A stretch of 64,000 bases of DNA from Archaeoglobaceae archaeon (lineage in GTDB: Archaea; Halobacteriota; Archaeoglobi; Archaeoglobales; Archaeoglobaceae): positions 1 through 64,000 of the forward strand of contig JAVYOO010000001.1 of NCBI GenBank assembly GCA_038734275.1. The letters run 5' to 3'. A program made the position numbers and the translations under genes. Below, piece by piece: positions 50,435 through 60,593 of the stretch. The notes under the pieces are model-generated. The model did no database searches. It saw nothing but the letters and a program-made list of their open reading frames with translations, and was not told the origin of the DNA. Numbering within the stretch: position 1 is the stretch's first letter; each line of letters starts with the position of its first letter.

Positions 50435-50457
50435 ATATTTGAAAATAACTTTTATTG

Positions 50458-50996
50458 ATGATCGAAATCAGCGATATTAAAGCAAGAAGAAAAAGACTTG
50501 GGATCACTCAGAAGGAACTTGCAGAGCTTGTTGGTGTTAGCCAGTCGCTTATTGCAAAACTCGAATCTGGAGTTCTGGATCCTAAGCTTTCGTTGATAAA
50601 GAGAATAATCAATACTCTTAACGAGCTTGAAAGCAAGAACTACTGGGCAAGAAACATTATGAACTCCCCGGTGATCATTGCGGAGTCATCTGATAGTGTT
50701 AAGAAGATCGCAAAGATTATGATCGAGAAGGGGATTTCTCAGCTTCCAGTCGTACAAGGGGAAAAGATCATTGGTAGTGTCACTGAGAGAGGCATATTTA
50801 AGGCATTTTTTGAAGGAAAAAGTGATATTTTGGTCCGCGACATCATTGAAGAGCCGCTCCCTGTTGTGAAACCGAGTGAGAGCATTTTCGAAATTTCAAA
50901 GCTATTGCTTGAGCACCCGGCGGTTTTGGTAGTAGAAGGCAGAAACATTCTGGGATCATCACCAAACACGACATAATGAGAGTTAGCACGAAATGA
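50458..50996 (+). pseudogene. HTH-CBS regulator with a frameshift near its C-terminus
   Basis: ATG50458 encodes an XRE-type HTH (KRLGITQKELAELVGVSQSL) then two CBS domains, a common archaeal regulator. At about 50951-50954 the frame goes ILGSSPNTT stop, but the plus-1 reading gives ILGIITKHDIMRVSTK and a stop at 50994-50996. The second is the normal end of a CBS domain, and one base next to GGG is missing. As read in the window, the product stops at 50976 with a truncated last CBS strand. It could still be partly active. Confidence 0.72.
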
Positions 50997-51070: not shown

Positions 51071-51140
51071 TTCGCATAGATACTACTCTTGTCCAAACTC
51101 TACGAGCTGAGTTAGCAGGTAGTTTAAGAGGGTGAGGAAA

Positions 51141-54100
51141 ATGAAACGAAAAATGTTTTTGGCTTTGGTATTGGTGCTTTCAATAACCCAGATAGCATCA
51201 GCTCAATGTTCAGAGCAAACACCACCAATAATCTTCGTCCACGGTGGCGCTGGCTCAGGAGCGCAGTTTGAAAGCCAAGCAATGCGTTTCACGAGCAATG
51301 GCTATCCAGCAGAGTGCTTAATGGTTTTCGAATATAACAGCTCTGCTTACTCTGTAAATCCAACTTATCAGGCACAAACACTTGCTTTGCTTTCTCAGAA
51401 AGTAAACGAAACTTTCGAAAGTATTGGTAAGCCCGTGCTTATCGGCCATTCCCTGGGCACGAGAGTTGTTTACAACTACACTCTAATCTACTCAGATTAC
51501 GTAGACAAGGTTGCAAAGATCATACTCGTTGACGGCATTGCAAATGTTCCCGCTCCGAATGTTCCTACGCTCGCAATCTTTGGCAGACCAACCGCTTTAA
51601 GACCACCCGGAGCGAATGTTACTGAAGCTACGAACGTTTACATTCAAAATCAGACACACGTTGAAGTCATGACCTCTCCAGAGAGCTTTGTCGAGATGTT
51701 CAAATTCATTACTGGCAAGGAGCCAGTCACGAAATACATACTGCCTGAGAAAGAAATAGAGCTTAAGGGAAAACTTGTTTACTTCCCCTCCAACATCGGG
51801 CTTGAAACTGGAACTCTAAACATATACGAGCTAAGAGAGGACGGCTTCAGACTTAGCAACACGCCTGTTGCAACTTACACGATCACCGACGGCACTTGGG
51901 GACCTTTTAACGCAAAGCCGGGAGTTAGATATGAGTTCGAATTCGTAAGGGATAACAACCTCACGATGCACTTCTACAGAGAACCATTCCTGAGGAGCGA
52001 TTACTGGATCCGCTTCCTTGTTTCACCGCCTGGCGGTATTGCGGAGTATGCAAGCAGAAGTGACCAGCACACCAATTTGCTCATAATGAGATACAAAGAG
52101 ATCTTAACTGAGGTTGATCCGCTTTATGTTAAAGCAGCTGATGATCTGAAGATCAACGGTGTCTCAGTATGTGATCCGAGAATTTGTAATGTAAGCAAAG
52201 CTTTGAACGGTCCAACAGGAATATGGATCTTCGACAACAATTCTGATCAACAAAGCGTTCTGTATCCTCCGAACGCCACCTATCATGCCCAACCCTTCCA
52301 GACTGGAATTGATTACTACATTCCCGCTGGTGCTCCGGATCAGAGCATAAACGTTACAATATTTGCCCGTGGTGGGGGAGTGCAAACGCTGAAGGTTCCT
52401 AACTGGAAATCCTCCGAGCACCGCGTAATATTGCAGTTTAACGACTACGTGCAGACTTATCTGCTGGACTCAGATGCTGAGATCCTTGTGCCATACTATG
52501 CGGATCCGTTTGCAGTCGATATAAGCTCAATGCCGAAATTTGAAGAGCTAAGCGGAACTGATTGGATCAAAGTCGACTTGCCGGAGCCTTGCAAGACTGG
52601 AAATGGGAACCAGAGTTTCATAATGGTCAAGAAGGGCAGTGGTGCGAATGCAAGCAAACTCCTCTTCTACCTTGAAGGCGGTGGAGCCTGTGTTGATTTC
52701 TTAACCTGCAGACCCTTGCCTGAAGGCACTGTGGTTAAGCTCGATCTGAACTTCACAGAGCTTATTGCAGCCTATAACATGGGCATATTCGACTTCAGCA
52801 ACCCATTGAACCCCTTCCGTGATTGGACTGTAGTTTTCGTCCCATTCTCAACTGGAGACTTCCATCATGGCAACAGAGTCGTTAAATACTACAACATAAC
52901 AAATCCAAGCAATCCTACTGAGAACAAGACGATCTACCATGTTGGCTATGTTAATGCAATCGTAGCAATGCGCTGGATCAACCAGACAACCTTTGACAAA
53001 GTCGTTATCGCCGGCTCAAGCGCTGGAGGTTTTGGCTCAATTCTGCATCACTACAAAGCCTACGAGATCTTCAAGAAGCCAATTACAGTCATAAACGACG
53101 CTGGACCGGGAATAAGAGTAAGTGAAACAAATCCATTCAACTGGGCGGTAACAACCGCAAGATGGGGTTCCTTGCAGAACTTCCCCGCAGAGTCGATCAG
53201 CTACTTCAACGACAAGGACTTACTGCACTTCCTCGACTATTCGTTGCCAAGGTGTGAAGGCTGTATTTATGGCCTCTACGAAGATCAATACGACTTCATA
53301 ATTGCAACTCTTAGGGCAAACGAAACAGATTTCAGAGCACAGTTAATGAGTCTAAGCAATGAAATAAAAATGGCTCACAAGGACAAGTTCTTTAGGTTCT
53401 TCGTGCTCGATTCGATGCACATGGTCCTTCCAAGCTGTTATGGCTTCCAGCAGTGCTATGCTGTTGACAGATTCTACAATTTGAATATAAGCGGTTACTA
53501 CTTCTACCAGTGGGTCAATGCTTTGCTCGCTGGCAGTGGCAAAGACATTGTAGAAGAGAACTGGATTGGTCCAGTGGAGAAAACTGTAAGAGGGACTGAG
53601 CTTAAGAGATACGTCTGGACTGTTGATCGACCGCCGTATGGAAGCTACGACAAGATCGCAATTGAGAGAGTCGTGAACGAAAGCATTGTAGGCGATAAAC
53701 CAGTGATCCTAATACTGCCAGGAACATGGTCGAGCGGAGAACAGCTTGCCAATCTGTCATGGAACGACAATGGCTGGATCGATGTAAACGAAGAATACGC
53801 TCTTGTGCCATTCCTTGCTAATCGTGGCTTTGATGTTTACACAATTGACTACAGAACACACTTCGTGCCAAATGACACGACAGACTTCTCTTTCATGTTT
53901 GAGTGGGGCTGAGTGAACTGGATCTGGGACATTAAGACTGCGGTTGAGAAGATAAAGCAAATTTCGGGCAAAGAAAAGATCTACCTTGCTGGAGAGAGCT
54001 TTGGTGGAATCGCAGCACAGAACTACGCAACTCTATTCCAGGAAGATCTGAAGGGTCTAATCCTGCTCGACGGCATGGCGAGGGTAGGAACAAGAACGAA

Positions 54101-54818
54101 CAGCTACAATCTGACTGCAAATCTCACTGCAATGAAATTGGGAGCAATTCCTTACCAAGTGCCTTCAAATGGTGGACCGAACAACTGGCACATATGGGTT
54201 GACGCCATAGTTAATCCTTCGCCGATAAAGAACATAACACTGCTTTCTGGGCTTTCCACATGGTATGTTTTCCCAGGAGCAGCAAATCCATTCAGCTATC
54301 CATGGGCGATATTGATCCCGCACGTATACTTCGCAGTCATGGCGACATTTGATCCATTCTGGTCTAACAGGCTCAATTTAGACAGATCAGCGTATGCGGA
54401 CTGGCAGAATTGCCCGTATTTGCCATTTGACTTCGACGATCATTACAGCGAGATTACTGTGCCCGTGATCTCATTTGTAAGCCAGTGGGGCTACAATCTC
54501 GGACTACTTGTTCCGGGCTTCGGAGGGCCATGCGTAAACCCGACTGGAAGCGATGACTTCACTTGCATTCTCTTGCAGGGCTATGGACATCTCGATGTTT
54601 ACAATGGGCCCTTCATAAGAAAAGACGTAAATGAGCCACTGCTTAACTGGATGCTTGGAATTGAAGACGGAAGCTGGGATGTCTGGAGAAATTATGACAG
54701 CAACGGCGATAAGAAAATAGACGATAGCGAGCTAATTCAAGCTCTAAGCGCTTATCATGGAGGAAGCCTGAGCATGGCTAACATGACGAAGGTTATGGTA
54801 AAATGGATTGGTAGCTGA
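51141..54818 (+). pseudogene. Giant secreted lipase/esterase with dockerin-like end, interrupted by in-frame TGA
   Basis: One frame of 1225 positions holds a signal peptide (1-22, ending ASAQC), a lipase domain like the A. fulgidus lipase (GHSLG Ser104, Asp131 in LVDGIAN, His173 in QTHVEV), a lipid-binding-like beta part, a pectinacetylesterase-like domain (YLEGGGACVDF, nucleophile in GSSAGGFGS at Ser627), a third alpha/beta hydrolase (ILPGTWSSGEQ, GESFGG Ser953, His in GYGHLDVY) and a dockerin-like EF-hand segment (NYDSNGDKKIDDSEL from Asp1186). A TGA at 53910-53912 interrupts the third hydrolase; GTG53913 follows in frame. As read, a 923-residue product results and the rest is cut off. Confidence 0.8.
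53910..53912 (+). other. In-frame TGA inside the third hydrolase domain
   Basis: The codons before it read FMFEWG and those after read VNWIWDIKTAVEKI, which belong to the same alpha/beta-hydrolase between the oxyanion strand and GESFGG. A TGG to TGA change (Trp to stop) would explain it. A Sec insertion is unlikely because Archaeoglobales are not known to use Sec. Confidence 0.75.
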
Positions 54819-54828
54819 GGTGGTTTAA

Positions 54829-57800
54829 ATGAAAGCTCTTAAAATTTTTGCCCTCTTAATTCTGAGCATTTTCGCAGTCTCGGCAGCTGAGATCACACTC
54901 GAGGCTAATAAAACCGTAATGCCAAAGGGAGATGTTGTGAAGGTTGATGTCTATGTTAATGGCACGAACGTCGCCTCTGTAATGTTGAATTTAACCTATG
55001 AGCCAACAAAACTTAGTTTGATCGACAGGGTGAGGTATGGAGTGTTTGGAGAGGAGCAGTTCAAGACTGGTGCAAATTACGTTGCATTCATTGGCGTTGG
55101 AGGCAGTGTTTCTGAAAAAACTAAGATCGCAACCCTAAGCTTTAAGGCAGTTGGGGTTGCAACCACTACAAATATAACTCCCGTTAGTGCAGCTGTGAAT
55201 GGCAGTTCGGTTCCAGTTTTGCCTGAAAAAGTAACGATCACTATTCTTGACTACGAGGTCATAAACTCAACTTGGAGAGATCCTTTTGCAATCAGCATTG
55301 CGGGAATGACAAGCTTTGCTTCTTTGCCCGTAGATGATCCGAGTGATGGAATAAACTGGACAAAGGTTGATCTGCCTGCGGACTGCAAGAATGGTGTTGA
55401 GAACAACACTTTCATAATGGTTAGAAAAGGTAGCGAGAACAAGGTTCTGATCTACCTTGAAGGCGGTGGAGCATGTTCAAGCTATGCAAGTTGTGGTGGA
55501 CCAGCAAGCACAGTTACAACTCTTGAACCAGAATTCGACACGGGAGCAAGACCGCTGAAGAGCACTTATGTAAGGGGAATTTTCGATGTCAAGAACCCAA
55601 TGAACCCATTCCGCAACTGGACGATGGTCTTTGTGCCTTATGGCACTGGAGATATCCACATGGGCAACAGGGTTGTTAAATACTACAACACAAGCAATCC
55701 TACTGAGAACAAAACAATTTACCACGTTGGCTATGTTAACGCAATTGTAGCGATGCGCTGGATCAATGCAAGCGGGAACTTTGATCAAATCGTAGTCACT
55801 GGCACTTCCGCGGGAGGCTTTGGCACAATTCTACACTTCTACAGAGCTTCGGAAATATTTGGTAATGGAATCATTGCAATAAACGACGCCGGCCCGGGAA
55901 CTGCGCCGAATGTGACGAGCGCTTTACCACCTGCAGTCACTGCAGAGAAATGGGGTTCAATGCAGAATTATCCACCGCAATCACTGCCATACTTCGCAGA
56001 CACCGACACGATCAGGTTCCTCAACTGGGCATTAAATGGCTCCGCTGGTGGCTGTGGAAACTGCATCTATGCGCTATTTGAGGATCAGTGGGACTTTATA
56101 ATTGGTCCATACTTCCAGGGCTACAGCTTCCCCGATTTCCAAGCAAGGCTGTTGAATGCGATTGCGAGCATAAAGGCTAACTTCAGCGATCGCTTCTGCT
56201 CCTACTTGCCACTTTCAACATATCACACCGCTTTCGCAGGTGGCTACAACTATCCCGCAGGAGATCGATTCTACAATCTGCACATCGACGGCTACACGCT
56301 TGTCCAGTGGATTAACGACGTGCTTAATGGAAACTGCGTAGACAAGAGAGATCTCGGTTTAAGAGACTTGCAAGTCGAAATTTTAAGTGCTCCAAGCAGT
56401 GCAATCGTTGGCAATGCATACAACATAACCGTGAAGGTTAGCAACGTTGGTAGTAACGCAACTCCGGATCCGTTCTTCGTAATCCTTTCCAATGCAACCG
56501 CAACGCTTGGCTACAAAGTAATGACGCTTCCAGCTAATTCAAACGTTACGTTCAACTTCACTTGGATTCCAACTAGAGCTGGAACGGAGAGACTTAATGT
56601 GACTGTGGATGGTTTGCTTGTCCCAGCTTTGGTAACACTTCTGCCTCTTGGCTCTGTTGTTGAGCTCAATGAGGCTAACAACACGAGAAGCATAACTGTA
56701 AGCGTGTGTCGTGTTGAAGCTGCATCCATTACGGTGAACAACTGGTTAACGCCCTATGAAGTCGTGCTCGGTATGCTGCCAAAGACTGCAAACGTCACCC
56801 TTCCAGATGGGAGCGTTGTAGCGGTCAATGTGCAGTGGCTTAATATAACCGATCCGGAGTTCCCGCAATTTAACTACACTCCAACAGCTTCAGCATTTAC
56901 TCCTTCATATATAGCGACAGGTAAAGTAGTAATTCCAGCTGTTTGCACTGGTGAAGCAATTGTAAGAACCAATGTCACTGTAGCAACACCTTTATTGCCA
57001 ATCTACTGGCCAAATGCTGGAATATATCCAGACGGAAGACCGCTGAACATAACCGACAAGACACTCTTCAATCAGCCAGGAAGATATGAGAAAGTAACGC
57101 TCAGCTTTGGAGGACTTGAGAGGACTTATTACTACTATGTGCCGACTTCTTACAATGTAAGCAAACCAACTCCACTCGTTCTCGTCTTCCACGGCGGAGG
57201 CTCTTGTGGTTTAGCACAGATGCTTGCTGCTGACGACTTTGCGGAGCAATATGGCTTCATACTTGTAACCCCAGACGGTTACGGCTGGACATGGAATAGA
57301 ACGAGAGACGTTCCATTTGTGGAGAAGATCATCGAAGATATGCAGGCAAAGTTCAACATTGATAAGAGCAGAATTTATGCTATGGGAATTTCCATGGGCG
57401 GAATGATGACGACTTATGTGCTTTACGATCTATCTGACAAGATCGCCGCAGTGGGAATCGTTAGTGGCTCAAGAGTCCTCGCAAGTGAACTGATGAATGG
57501 AACACTTCCACCCAGACCAATGACAGTTGTGATCAGCGCTGGAACCGGTGAGCGTGTAACAGGAAATCCAATAAACGAGCACTTAAATGGCAGAAATGCA
57601 ACACAGTTACTCATTCAAGCGTGGAACTGCACTCCAACTCCAGAGACTAAATTCTGGCCAAGCAATCAGAATGATCCCAACACGAATGTGACGAGATATG
57701 TTTACACAGGTTGCAAGAACGGTGTTAAGGTTGTTTACTTTGAAGTCGGCAATGGCGGGCATGCATGGATGGGTGGGCTACAGTATGGGATTCCAGCATC

Positions 57801-58572
57801 AATCGGTTGGGTTACAAAGCACGTGAATGCATGGGACGACAAGGATGGAATGTGGGCTTACTTAAAACTGGAATCCTTACCCTCTCCAGTTATCCCCACC
57901 ACTCCACGCCCAATACTCGGCGGCGGTGGTGGCGGTGGAGGAGCAATGCCGGGAGTGCCAGTATACATAACCGCATATGAAACAGTAAAAGCAAATGAAG
58001 AGAGCATAATAGATCTACCGCAGAGTGCTTTCTGGGAGACAAATGTTGTTGCACTCTTGATACTGAGCTCAGAGGACAACAACATCCGCTTCAGGATTGA
58101 AAAGCTTAAAGAACTGCCACCTGGAATTCCAGAGCCGAAGGGAGACTTAGTAGTGCTAATACTGAGCATAGAGCCAACTCTGAGCAAAGAAGCAAGCATT
58201 AAAGGAAAGATCAAATTCGGAATCCCAATAGAAGAAATAAAAGCTAAAGGCTTCGATCCAAAGGCTGTCGCAGTAATTCTGCTAAAGTGGAACGGCAAGG
58301 AATGGATCGAATTGCCTACGAATTTCGTTGGCAGTGATGGAAAATACAACTACTACGAGGCTGAAACTACAAGCTTTAGCTACTTCGTCGCACAGCTAAA
58401 GCCTTTGGAAACTCCAAAGCCGACAACACCAGTGGCAACTCCACCAACAACACTCGTGACAACACCAACCACGACTCCAGCTGAGAAACCGTTCATTCCT
58501 GGCTTCGAAGCAATCTTCGCAATTGCTGGAATGATAGCGGTGGCTTATCTGCTTAGGAGGAAGAAAGATTGA
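54829..58572 (+). CDS. Giant cohesin-like/esterase/PGF-CTERM surface protein
   Basis: A 1247-residue secreted protein. Order: signal peptide (1-19); cohesin-like domain (about 20-135, EITLEANKTVMPKGDVVKVD); pectinacetylesterase-like domain (YLEGGGACSSY, GTSAGGFGT with Ser327); a CARDB-like domain (about 510-625); a PHB-depolymerase-like esterase (LVFHGGGSCG, Ser855 in GISMGGMM); Gly run; PGF-pre-PGF domain (about 1040-1190); Thr/Pro linker; and a PGF-CTERM anchor FIPGFEAIFAIAGMIAVAYL with basic tail. It starts 10 bp after the previous gene with SD GAGGTGG, so both form one operon. Probably processed by archaeosortase A and lipid-anchored. Confidence 0.88.
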   Translation: MKALKIFALLILSIFAVSAAEITLEANKTVMPKGDVVKVDVYVNGTNVASVMLNLTYEPTKLSLIDRVRYGVFGEEQFKTGANYVAFIGVGGSVSEKTKIATLSFKAVGVATTTNITPVSAAVNGSSVPVLPEKVTITILDYEVINSTWRDPFAISIAGMTSFASLPVDDPSDGINWTKVDLPADCKNGVENNTFIMVRKGSENKVLIYLEGGGACSSYASCGGPASTVTTLEPEFDTGARPLKSTYVRGIFDVKNPMNPFRNWTMVFVPYGTGDIHMGNRVVKYYNTSNPTENKTIYHVGYVNAIVAMRWINASGNFDQIVVTGTSAGGFGTILHFYRASEIFGNGIIAINDAGPGTAPNVTSALPPAVTAEKWGSMQNYPPQSLPYFADTDTIRFLNWALNGSAGGCGNCIYALFEDQWDFIIGPYFQGYSFPDFQARLLNAIASIKANFSDRFCSYLPLSTYHTAFAGGYNYPAGDRFYNLHIDGYTLVQWINDVLNGNCVDKRDLGLRDLQVEILSAPSSAIVGNAYNITVKVSNVGSNATPDPFFVILSNATATLGYKVMTLPANSNVTFNFTWIPTRAGTERLNVTVDGLLVPALVTLLPLGSVVELNEANNTRSITVSVCRVEAASITVNNWLTPYEVVLGMLPKTANVTLPDGSVVAVNVQWLNITDPEFPQFNYTPTASAFTPSYIATGKVVIPAVCTGEAIVRTNVTVATPLLPIYWPNAGIYPDGRPLNITDKTLFNQPGRYEKVTLSFGGLERTYYYYVPTSYNVSKPTPLVLVFHGGGSCGLAQMLAADDFAEQYGFILVTPDGYGWTWNRTRDVPFVEKIIEDMQAKFNIDKSRIYAMGISMGGMMTTYVLYDLSDKIAAVGIVSGSRVLASELMNGTLPPRPMTVVISAGTGERVTGNPINEHLNGRNATQLLIQAWNCTPTPETKFWPSNQNDPNTNVTRYVYTGCKNGVKVVYFEVGNGGHAWMGGLQYGIPASIGWVTKHVNAWDDKDGMWAYLKLESLPSPVIPTTPRPILGGGGGGGGAMPGVPVYITAYETVKANEESIIDLPQSAFWETNVVALLILSSEDNNIRFRIEKLKELPPGIPEPKGDLVVLILSIEPTLSKEASIKGKIKFGIPIEEIKAKGFDPKAVAVILLKWNGKEWIELPTNFVGSDGKYNYYEAETTSFSYFVAQLKPLETPKPTTPVATPPTTLVTTPTTTPAEKPFIPGFEAIFAIAGMIAVAYLLRRKKD

Positions 58573-58864: not shown

Positions 58865-59701
58865 ATGAGTTCTTTTGGCAAAGTAAAATGGATCGCCTTT
58901 TTGATTGTTTTAATTTCCGCTATTCAACTCTCCAGTGCTGCTGGCTGGATAAGAATAAATCCAATAGAAGGAACAGTTGGGTCGAATTTCTGGGTCAGGG
59001 GTGGTGGTTTCGTTCCCGATTCGAAAGTTGGATTAATGTTTGGTGATCAGATTATTGGGATTATCACTACAGATCGAAGTGGGAGTATCTCAGTCAGATT
59101 AGAAGTTCCTGAAATTTCCTGTGGAAAGCATAAAGTTTTAGCGATTGATGAAGTTAAAAACAATGCTTATGTGTTTTTCAATGTAACTCCGAAAATAACG
59201 AGGGTATACCCAAATGATGGTAGACCGGGTTCAGCTATTACAATTACAGGCAAAGGTTTCTCTGCGAATTCGAATATTAAGGTTAGGTTTGTAAACCTTT
59301 TTGAGATTACGGGAATGCTCCAAGAAAATATAATATCTGAGAAAATGGCTAGAACCAACGAGAAGGGCACTTTCGAGATAAAATTTGAGATTCCCGAAGT
59401 TAACCCGGGTTACTATCTAATCTATGCCTATGACCCAGATTGCGGTATTGAGACAGGATATACAAATTTTGAGGTGTTAGAACCGAAGTCAACACCAACT
59501 CCTACACCGACGCCAAAGACACCAAAAACGACACCAGTGCAAAATGAATTAGCACAGCCAAGTGAAGCTGGAGAAACTGCACCTCAGACAACTCCAAAAA
59601 CTCCTACAACAAAAACAACGAAGTCAACTCCGGGATTTGAAGCTCTAATTGCAATCGGCGGTATTGCTACAGCTATTCTGGTTTCAATAAGACGCAAGTG
59701 A
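58865..59701 (+). CDS. PGF-CTERM surface protein with two TIG/IPT-like repeats, copy 1
   Basis: A 278-residue secreted protein. Signal peptide (about 1-27), two beta-sandwich repeats of about 85 residues (INPIEGTVGSNFWVRGGGF and NDGRPGSAITITGKGF), a Thr/Pro linker (about 210-250), then TPGFEALIAIGGIATAILVS and Arg/Lys: the PGF-CTERM signal of archaeosortase. Function is probably structural or adhesive at the cell surface. Tandem paralog of the next gene. Confidence 0.85.
   Translation: MSSFGKVKWIAFLIVLISAIQLSSAAGWIRINPIEGTVGSNFWVRGGGFVPDSKVGLMFGDQIIGIITTDRSGSISVRLEVPEISCGKHKVLAIDEVKNNAYVFFNVTPKITRVYPNDGRPGSAITITGKGFSANSNIKVRFVNLFEITGMLQENIISEKMARTNEKGTFEIKFEIPEVNPGYYLIYAYDPDCGIETGYTNFEVLEPKSTPTPTPTPKTPKTTPVQNELAQPSEAGETAPQTTPKTPTTKTTKSTPGFEALIAIGGIATAILVSIRRK
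59621..59679 (+). repeat. 59-bp identical tail repeat, copy 1
   Basis: Bases 59621-59679 equal 60513-60571 exactly. They encode the PGF-CTERM anchor of the two paralogs. Flanking sequence has diverged. Confidence 0.85.
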
Positions 59702-59748
59702 TTTAGCTCCAAATTTCGATTTTTATTTTAAAAACAGCAATGATAAGT

Positions 59749-59757
59749 GTTAAATAT
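59749..59757 (+). promoter_or_regulatory. TATA box of the second TIG-repeat PGF-CTERM gene
   Basis: GTTAAATAT lies about 25 bp upstream of ATG59778. As in the first paralog, the sequence TTTTGTTATGA covers the start and no Shine-Dalgarno is visible, so each gene probably has its own leaderless mRNA. Confidence 0.5.
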
Positions 59758-59777
59758 CGCTAAACATCATTTTTGTT

Positions 59778-60593
59778 ATGAAGTTCCCAAAAATAATTAA
59801 ATGGTTCTTGTTCGTATGTTTGACAGTCCTAATGGTTTATTCTGCAAGTGCTGTGATACCGTCACCCTCTATTGAAATAAAACCTGTTAGCGGGACTGTT
59901 GGCAGTTCTGTGAGCATAAAAGGAGAGGGTTTCTCCATGGATTCAGAAATCAGGATTTATTGGGAAGATAAGCTATTAGCCACGAGTAAAACGAGCTCGA
60001 AAGGTTCGTTCTCAGCTTCTATAAGCGTTCCACAAGTCCCTTGCGGTTATTATAAGATTACAGCAGTGGATGAGGTAAAATACAATGCTTACGCTACCTT
60101 TAGAGTAACACCGAAGATAACAAAGATTTCAACTACGAAAGGAGTTCCTGGGACAATTGTGACCATTTCGGGTAATGGTTTCTCGGCAAATTCCGATGTT
60201 GATATAAGATTTGTTGATCCCTTCAACGAAACTTGGATATTGTCACAAATGCGTATTCAGTCGAACAACTCTGGAGTCATTCAGGTTAACTTTGAAATCC
60301 CACAGGTTTCAGCAGGCGATTACAGAATATTTGCGATAGACTTAAAAACTGGACTTAAGACAGATTACACCAAATTTACTGTAGAGGCGCCAAAAACAAC
60401 CGCAACCCCAACTCCTGCCACTACACAACCACAAGATCAGAACAAAACGAATCAGACAAAACCAACCACAACTCCAAAGACAACTCCTAAAACTCCAGTA
60501 ACTTATTCACCAAAGTCAACTCCGGGATTTGAAGCTCTAATTGCAATCGGCGGTATTGCTACAGCTATTCTTGTTTCAAGAAGACACAGATAA
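59778..60593 (+). CDS. PGF-CTERM surface protein with two TIG/IPT-like repeats, copy 2
   Basis: A 271-residue secreted protein with the same layout as copy 1: signal peptide (about 1-25), repeats starting IKPVSGTVGSSVSIKGEGF and TKGVPGTIVTISGNGF, a Thr/Pro linker, and the PGF-CTERM TPGFEALIAIGGIATAILVS followed by Arg residues. Body identity to copy 1 is moderate, but the end is DNA-identical over 59 bp. Confidence 0.85.
   Translation: MKFPKIIKWFLFVCLTVLMVYSASAVIPSPSIEIKPVSGTVGSSVSIKGEGFSMDSEIRIYWEDKLLATSKTSSKGSFSASISVPQVPCGYYKITAVDEVKYNAYATFRVTPKITKISTTKGVPGTIVTISGNGFSANSDVDIRFVDPFNETWILSQMRIQSNNSGVIQVNFEIPQVSAGDYRIFAIDLKTGLKTDYTKFTVEAPKTTATPTPATTQPQDQNKTNQTKPTTTPKTTPKTPVTYSPKSTPGFEALIAIGGIATAILVSRRHR
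60513..60571 (+). repeat. 59-bp identical tail repeat, copy 2
   Basis: Second copy of the identical segment at 59621-59679, in the same direction and frame. It suggests recent gene conversion or strong constraint on the sorting signal at the DNA level. Confidence 0.85.

Follow-up and report, generated by a model that had tools for sequence, protein, structure and literature searches.

A lipase/esterase gene pair with a cohesin-fold domain and an EF-hand tail: a proposed surface assembly in an Archaeoglobaceae archaeon

Two neighbouring genes of an Archaeoglobaceae archaeon, located in a 64,000-nt stretch of DNA (the window), probably encode a two-protein esterase assembly on the cell surface, in which calcium-dependent docking between a cohesin-fold domain and an EF-hand tail would retain the secreted partner. 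Little is known about how wall-less archaea retain their secreted enzymes at the S-layer, and no role has been assigned to most archaeal cohesins and dockerin-like tails. The locus provides a concrete enzyme pair, lipase/esterases with a proposed cohesin-type receptor.

In the proposed mechanism, an archaeosortase would cleave the secreted gene 2 product at its PGF-CTERM, and the protein would stay on the cell with its N-terminal, cohesin-fold end outermost. The gene 1 product would be secreted unanchored, and its C-terminal calcium-binding EF-hand tail would dock on this domain. The assembly would gather an AFL-type lipase, two Notum/PAE-type carboxylesterases, a 2RAU-like hydrolase and a PHB-depolymerase-like esterase at the cell surface, with lipid or polyester as putative substrates. 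We infer the tail–cohesin binding, its calcium dependence and the substrates from the observations below.

Layout and domains of the two genes

The two genes lie co-directionally on the + strand (51132, or ATG 51141, to 54818 and 54829-58572) with a 10-nt gap between them, as originally predicted. They are flanked by an HTH-CBS regulator gene and a tRNA-Leu. The source archaeon is from a hot environment. We identified the following features.

51132..53912, +, first ORF of gene 1 (926 aa, GTG start; ATG at 51141), closing at an in-frame TGA
51132..51203, +, putative signal peptide of gene 1, MRKMKRKMFLALVLVLSITQIASA (read from the sequence)
51204..52457, +, D1, AFL-type lipase with Lipase_C and AF_1763-like C-terminal domains (Pfam; PDB 2ZYR)
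52470..53543, +, D2, pectinacetylesterase/Notum-like domain (Pfam)
53595..54650 (end approximate), +, D3, 2RAU-like alpha/beta hydrolase, interrupted by the TGA (Pfam; PDB match)
53910..53912, +, in-frame TGA; TGG (Trp) in the sister genome G004 (sequence comparison)
53913..54818, +, second ORF of gene 1 in the same frame (301 aa), with the remainder of D3 and the EF-hand tail (ORF list)
54669..54815, +, C-terminal EF-hand tail, proposed docking tag: canonical calcium loop DSNGDKKIDDSE, then two helices (profile; AF2)
54829..58572, +, gene 2 (1247 aa), 10 nt downstream of gene 1
54829..54885, +, putative signal peptide of gene 2, MKALKIFALLILSIFAVSA (read from the sequence)
54886..55239, +, N-terminal cohesin-fold domain, proposed receptor (profile, structure prediction, Foldseek)
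55243..56343, +, pectinacetylesterase/Notum-like domain of gene 2 (domain searches)
56362..56688, +, CARDB Ig-like spacer (domain search)
57115..57783, +, PHB-depolymerase/feruloyl-esterase-like domain, absent from the sister's gene 2 (domain searches)
58075..58389, +, PGF-pre-PGF domain (domain search)
58495..58563, +, PGF-CTERM anchor (PF18204, 39.2 bits; cut-off 18.8)

The original prediction had counted five or six hydrolase domains over both genes. We found five (an AFL-type lipase, two pectinacetylesterase/Notum-like domains, a 2RAU-like hydrolase and a PHB-depolymerase-like esterase) and no sixth. The three assigned to gene 1 were all present, in two open frames and not in the single one assumed. 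D1 combined a hydrolase core with Lipase_C and AF_1763-like C-terminal domains and matched PDB 2ZYR (E 3.5e-82) over nearly its full length. The Ser/Asp/His positions that we take to be the catalytic triad of AFL aligned with residues of D1. D2 was 52% identical to the corresponding domain of gene 2, and D3 matched 2RAU (E 7e-18). No cellulase or carbohydrate-binding module was detected in gene 1 or gene 2. An AMP-binding enzyme (acyl-CoA ligase) at 14.2 kb had been suggested to use the released acids; it lies 36 kb from the pair, beside RtcB, and showed no evident link to it.

Domain searches bore out the two esterase domains, the PGF-pre-PGF domain and the PGF-CTERM of gene 2. The protein has the PGF motif, transmembrane segment and basic tail of an archaeosortase substrate, and the window's genome encodes a protein of the exosortase/archaeosortase family (PF09721, over the cut-off) at C8:20749-21342. 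Judging from the gene contents, the PHB-depolymerase/feruloyl-esterase-like module is apparently mobile, because the sister's gene 2 is without it and G004 encodes a separate 422-aa protein with a domain 57% identical to it.

The N-terminal domain of gene 2 had been called cohesin-like, and structure prediction agreed (AF2, pLDDT 93.2, pTM 0.86). In a Foldseek search of the PDB, its best matches were cohesins (1g1k, E 1.9e-8), with the Archaeoglobus fulgidus cohesin 2xdh fourth (E 5.4e-8). At E ≤ 10, a five-sequence profile of the domain recovered one cellulosome cohesin (E 0.033) and no other PDB sequence. Pfam Cohesin (PF00963) was the best family for the isolated domain, below its gathering score (20.7 vs 24.1 bits), and matched 6 of 14 relatives at E ≤ 1. 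These data indicate that the domain is, as modelled, a cohesin-fold domain. Its dN/dS of 0.10 is that of purifying selection. A wider contig scan with a closer cohesin set gave matches only in the sister MAG and SKYB47.

The end of gene 1 had been described as a dockerin-like EF-hand segment with no anchor. The EF hand was present and no anchor was found, and the dockerin identity was rejected. The tail comprises the final 49-51 residues (AF2 pLDDT 89.6) and holds one canonical EF-hand loop with all ligand positions present; its second half has no ligands, so the two calcium-binding loop-helix repeats of a type I dockerin were not found. Dockerin PF00404 did not match the tail, and a scan of its own genome to E 10 found the C5 locus only. 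The PDB sequence matches listed for the tail were calmodulin-type EF hands. A search for a dockerin fold gave no PDB match below E 0.001, with no dockerin among the 50 matches listed. When the tail was compared by profile with two archaeal dockerins of the window's genome, the calcium loop alone aligned. The tail is dockerin-like only in its calcium loop-helix and its C-terminal position. It is under purifying selection (dN/dS 0.17).

The in-frame TGA in gene 1

Gene 1 falls into a 926-aa and a 301-aa ORF that share a frame, and the sister G004 has an intact ORF of 1283 aa. If the TGA is real, the secreted gene 1 product would have neither the D3 nucleophile motif (GESFGG), which lies 3' of the TGA, nor the tail. 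Because gene 1 is interrupted, the complex with gene 2 may not form in the sequenced strain. That strain loses the tail unless the TGA stems from an assembly error or translation continues past it.

Compared codon by codon with its sister counterpart, gene 1 had a dN/dS of 0.24 upstream of the TGA and 0.13 downstream. As far as sequence goes, this shows no decay and apparently unrelaxed selection past the TGA, which, together with the sister's TGG, argues that the TGA arose recently or through an assembly error. A 1-nt deletion (GGG vs GGGG in the sister) also disrupts the adjacent HTH-CBS gene (50455-50976). The position of this lesion in a G homopolymer suggests an assembly error in that gene. 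Two lesions so near each other fit assembly error or very recent loss. We also considered recoding of the UGA as selenocysteine and rejected it, as the sister residue is Trp.

A pseudogenized gene 1, with a real TGA fixed in this lineage and no complex, seems quite unlikely to us. The stop ahead of the D3 nucleophile and the second disrupted gene next to it speak for such a reading. It is opposed by the downstream dN/dS, which is not above the upstream value, by the intact sister gene, by the homopolymer setting of the HTH-CBS lesion and by the sister's Trp, which counts against a recoded stop. We retain the surface assembly as the preferred reading of the locus.

Tails and receptors across genomes

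A genome-wide profile search of the sister G004 (99% complete) found one tail and one cohesin of the gene 2 type, in adjacent genes, and these are its gene 1 and gene 2. A check that relatives keep both modules thus came out in favour of the original prediction in this close relative. The window's genome has five EF-tails and six cohesin domains of the gene 2 type (profile search). Four of the six are in tail-bearing proteins, immediately ahead of the tail. The other two are N-terminal, in gene 2 and in a 1056-aa S-layer-like PGF-CTERM protein, and each of these genes is directly downstream of an EF-tail gene. An S-layer-like gene of G068 has the same tail-then-cohesin order, which is also seen in G020, where both modules are of divergent subtypes. 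Orthology among the recurring S-layer loci is possible and would leave few independent instances of the cohesin version. Genes may also be adjacent because their products share a function without making contact.

Distances among cohesins were correlated with those among their linked tails (Mantel r 0.89, P = 0.0004), a correlation to which linkage and common descent contribute. The test on the four trans pairs alone was not significant (4 of 24 permutations) and has no power. The gene 1 and gene 2 modules were at distances of 0.68 and 0.69 from the S-layer-type pair in the same genome, compared to 0.39 and 0.37 between the S-layer-type pairs of G000 and G068, which belong to two genera. Because the distances within one genome are larger than those between genera, these data suggest that gene 1 and gene 2 may form a specificity separate from that of the S-layer-type pair.

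This comparison bears on a different reading, in which the tail docks mainly on the S-layer-like cohesin, or on any such cohesin, the gene 2 cohesin receives other tails, and the two genes are neighbours by regulation or function only. The genome does offer other partners, as the S-layer-like protein carries a related N-terminal cohesin and there are four other EF-tail proteins. We regard this reading as rather unlikely, given the distances above and the sister genome, where the S-layer-like ortholog (72% identical) has no cohesin and S-layer-type tails are also absent, yet the gene 1/gene 2 pair is kept. Retention of gene 1 by gene 2, as originally predicted, is supported by the fold prediction, the sister conservation, the recurrence at S-layer loci and the joint divergence of the modules; the dockerin identity of the tail is a part of that prediction that failed.

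EF-hand tails were found in 48 of 393 Halobacterota genomes (profile search), and 54 of 57 ended at most 8 residues from the C-terminus. Outside the Archaeoglobi, many were followed by a gene for a protein with an N-terminal receptor-like domain, weakly DUF11-like, which we name RTLP. At least 19 of 77 tail genes had an RTLP less than 1 kb downstream on the same strand, compared to ~0.05 expected by random placement, an expectation that assumes uniform placement. RTLP was first noticed beside tails and its discovery was biased accordingly; the fair part of the count is the non-seed genomes, with at least 14 of these tails in 13 genomes that contributed no row to the profile. Among the matches listed, no RTLP near a tail was on the opposite strand and two were upstream. 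Homology between RTLP and the cohesin domain was considered and was not supported (hhalign probability 10.6%).

RTLP occurred in several kinds of surface protein. One such protein had six RTLP domains (L145), the domain was N-terminal in S-layer-like proteins of G019, G069 and G070, and divergent copies were found in haloarchaeal PGF-CTERM proteins adjoining tail genes (L137, L138). The tail-plus-receptor gene order thus recurs at S-layer and other surface-protein loci of related archaea. Within the Archaeoglobi, five genomes (G000, G003, G004, G006 and G020) had the cohesin type or a variant of it and no RTLP match, and two (G019, G032) had RTLP and no A2-type cohesin. The model leaves unexplained why G069 and G070 had RTLP when no tail was detected in them.

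It might still be that cohesin-fold domain and EF-hand tail do not bind each other and have ordinary structural or glycan-contacting roles, surface proteins drawing them from a small pool of domains. Both modules are common in Halobacterota surface proteins, and 58 of the 77 tailed genes, among the matches listed, had neither receptor type nearby. We judge this unlikely, because the adjacency is specific to strand and order, tail and cohesin occur one-to-one in the sister genome, and, in the Archaeoglobi genomes searched for both receptor types, those with the cohesin version are without RTLP and those with RTLP are without that cohesin.

The surface assembly may be one case of something wider. 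We tentatively propose, as a possibility somewhat short of probable, a widespread archaeal mode of surface retention, in which a C-terminal one-loop EF-hand tail is received by the next gene's anchored or S-layer protein through an N-terminal beta-sandwich domain. The receptor slot would be filled by RTLP in most lineages and exchanged for a cohesin in this Archaeoglobaceae branch. In that case, one kind of tail would have gained docking of the cohesin-dockerin type on more than one occasion, by new origin or by recruitment. Across the genomes compared, tag and receptor genes seem to follow a general order at S-layer and transporter-binding-protein loci. If the binding is true, the tail could help to predict surface proteomes and could serve as a heat-stable tool for coupling proteins.

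Comparison with known systems

The pair resembles the bacterial cellulosome in having a secreted enzyme with a C-terminal calcium-binding module and a surface protein with a cohesin. It differs from the cellulosome in having no multi-cohesin scaffoldin, true dockerin, or detected cellulase or carbohydrate-binding module; gene 2 carries one cohesin, with CARDB only and no carbohydrate-binding module, unlike a scaffoldin. The description 'cellulosome-like' was overstated, with one module per partner and no multi-cohesin scaffold at the locus. D1 resembles the A. fulgidus lipase AFL (AF1763, PDB 2ZYR) in its nearly full-length alignment and conserved catalytic positions. AFL stands alone, whereas D1 opens a protein of three hydrolases and a proposed docking tail.

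ANME genomes are reported to contain many cohesins and dockerins, with dockerins on OppA- and TroA-type binding proteins for which attachment to the outer layer was suggested, according to the parts of these papers drawn on here (PMC9012536, PMC5244752). Some of the EF-tail proteins found here are likewise OppA-like (L134). Those parts of the papers count annotated domains and describe neither esterases nor a gene order in which a tail gene precedes that of an anchored protein whose receptor domain is N-terminal (PMC9012536, PMC5244752). In the part of the literature searched, we found no description of the one-loop tail, the tail-then-receptor order or an esterase pair as cargo. Non-cellulosomal archaeal cohesins and dockerins are already known; the novelty lies in these three features, with a gene order that extends to S-layer-like proteins.

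The closest known system is in A. fulgidus, whose non-cellulosomal cohesin and dockerin modules had been named as a precedent, correctly, and bind each other strongly (PMC9705933). Like the AF2376/AF2375 pair, the gene pair is archaeal, of the same family and without a cellulose link, and its cohesin fold matches 2xdh. The homologous AF2376/AF2375 locus of the window's genome (L041) has a PGF-CTERM-like tail after its cohesin. This locus is separate from the gene pair and, unlike it, has true two-loop dockerins over the Pfam cut-off. Compared to AF2376/AF2375, the gene pair has a one-loop EF-hand tail and a cohesin below the Pfam cut-off, and both of its partners are large multi-esterases.

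Receptor-like domains and EF-tail genes

We observed that in many Halobacterota, the gene immediately 3' of an EF-tail gene (one whose product ends in a one-loop EF-hand segment, the proposed docking tag) encodes the DUF11-like RTLP domain, a candidate receptor. These downstream proteins carry one to six RTLP copies each.

RTLP-domain genes beside EF-tail genes
L145:1459-4521
L143:3987-5702
L134:6769-8064
L147:4668-5984
L092:4461-6374

The RTLP domain was also present at the N-terminus of S-layer-like proteins in two further genomes (L168 and L173; G069 and G070), and despite these proteins no EF-tail was detected in either genome. A gene cluster (L034:6231-17216) lies 5' of another S-layer-like gene.

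Listed cluster products, all with a C-terminal EF-tail
Papain-like protease with beta-helix repeats
Beta-helix protein, two halves near-identical
838-aa protein

Differences from the sister genome

Upstream of gene 1, an HTH-CBS regulator gene (50455-50976) lacks one G from a G run. This shifts its frame relative to the sister genome, and its product ends in GSSPNTT in place of GIITKHDIMRVGVK. We compared the PHB-depolymerase-like module within gene 2 (56700-57890) with L032:4520-7093 and L033:3946-5214. The sister's gene 2 lacks this module, which in the sister genome sits in a separate protein. Downstream, 58865-60593 encodes two paralogues that contain PGS/TIG Ig-like domains and have PGF-CTERM-like ends. 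The pair adjoins a ribosomal protein cluster and is absent from the corresponding position in the sister genome.

Other EF-like and cohesin-dockerin loci

Two substrate-binding-protein-like genes (L035:333-2840) share the N-terminal motif YIE.FF.D..I...ELLN, which resembles an EF-tail located at the N-terminus. A separate locus of the window's own genome (L041:49-3243) encodes true dockerins and Pfam-level cohesins, and is similar to A. fulgidus AF2375/AF2376.
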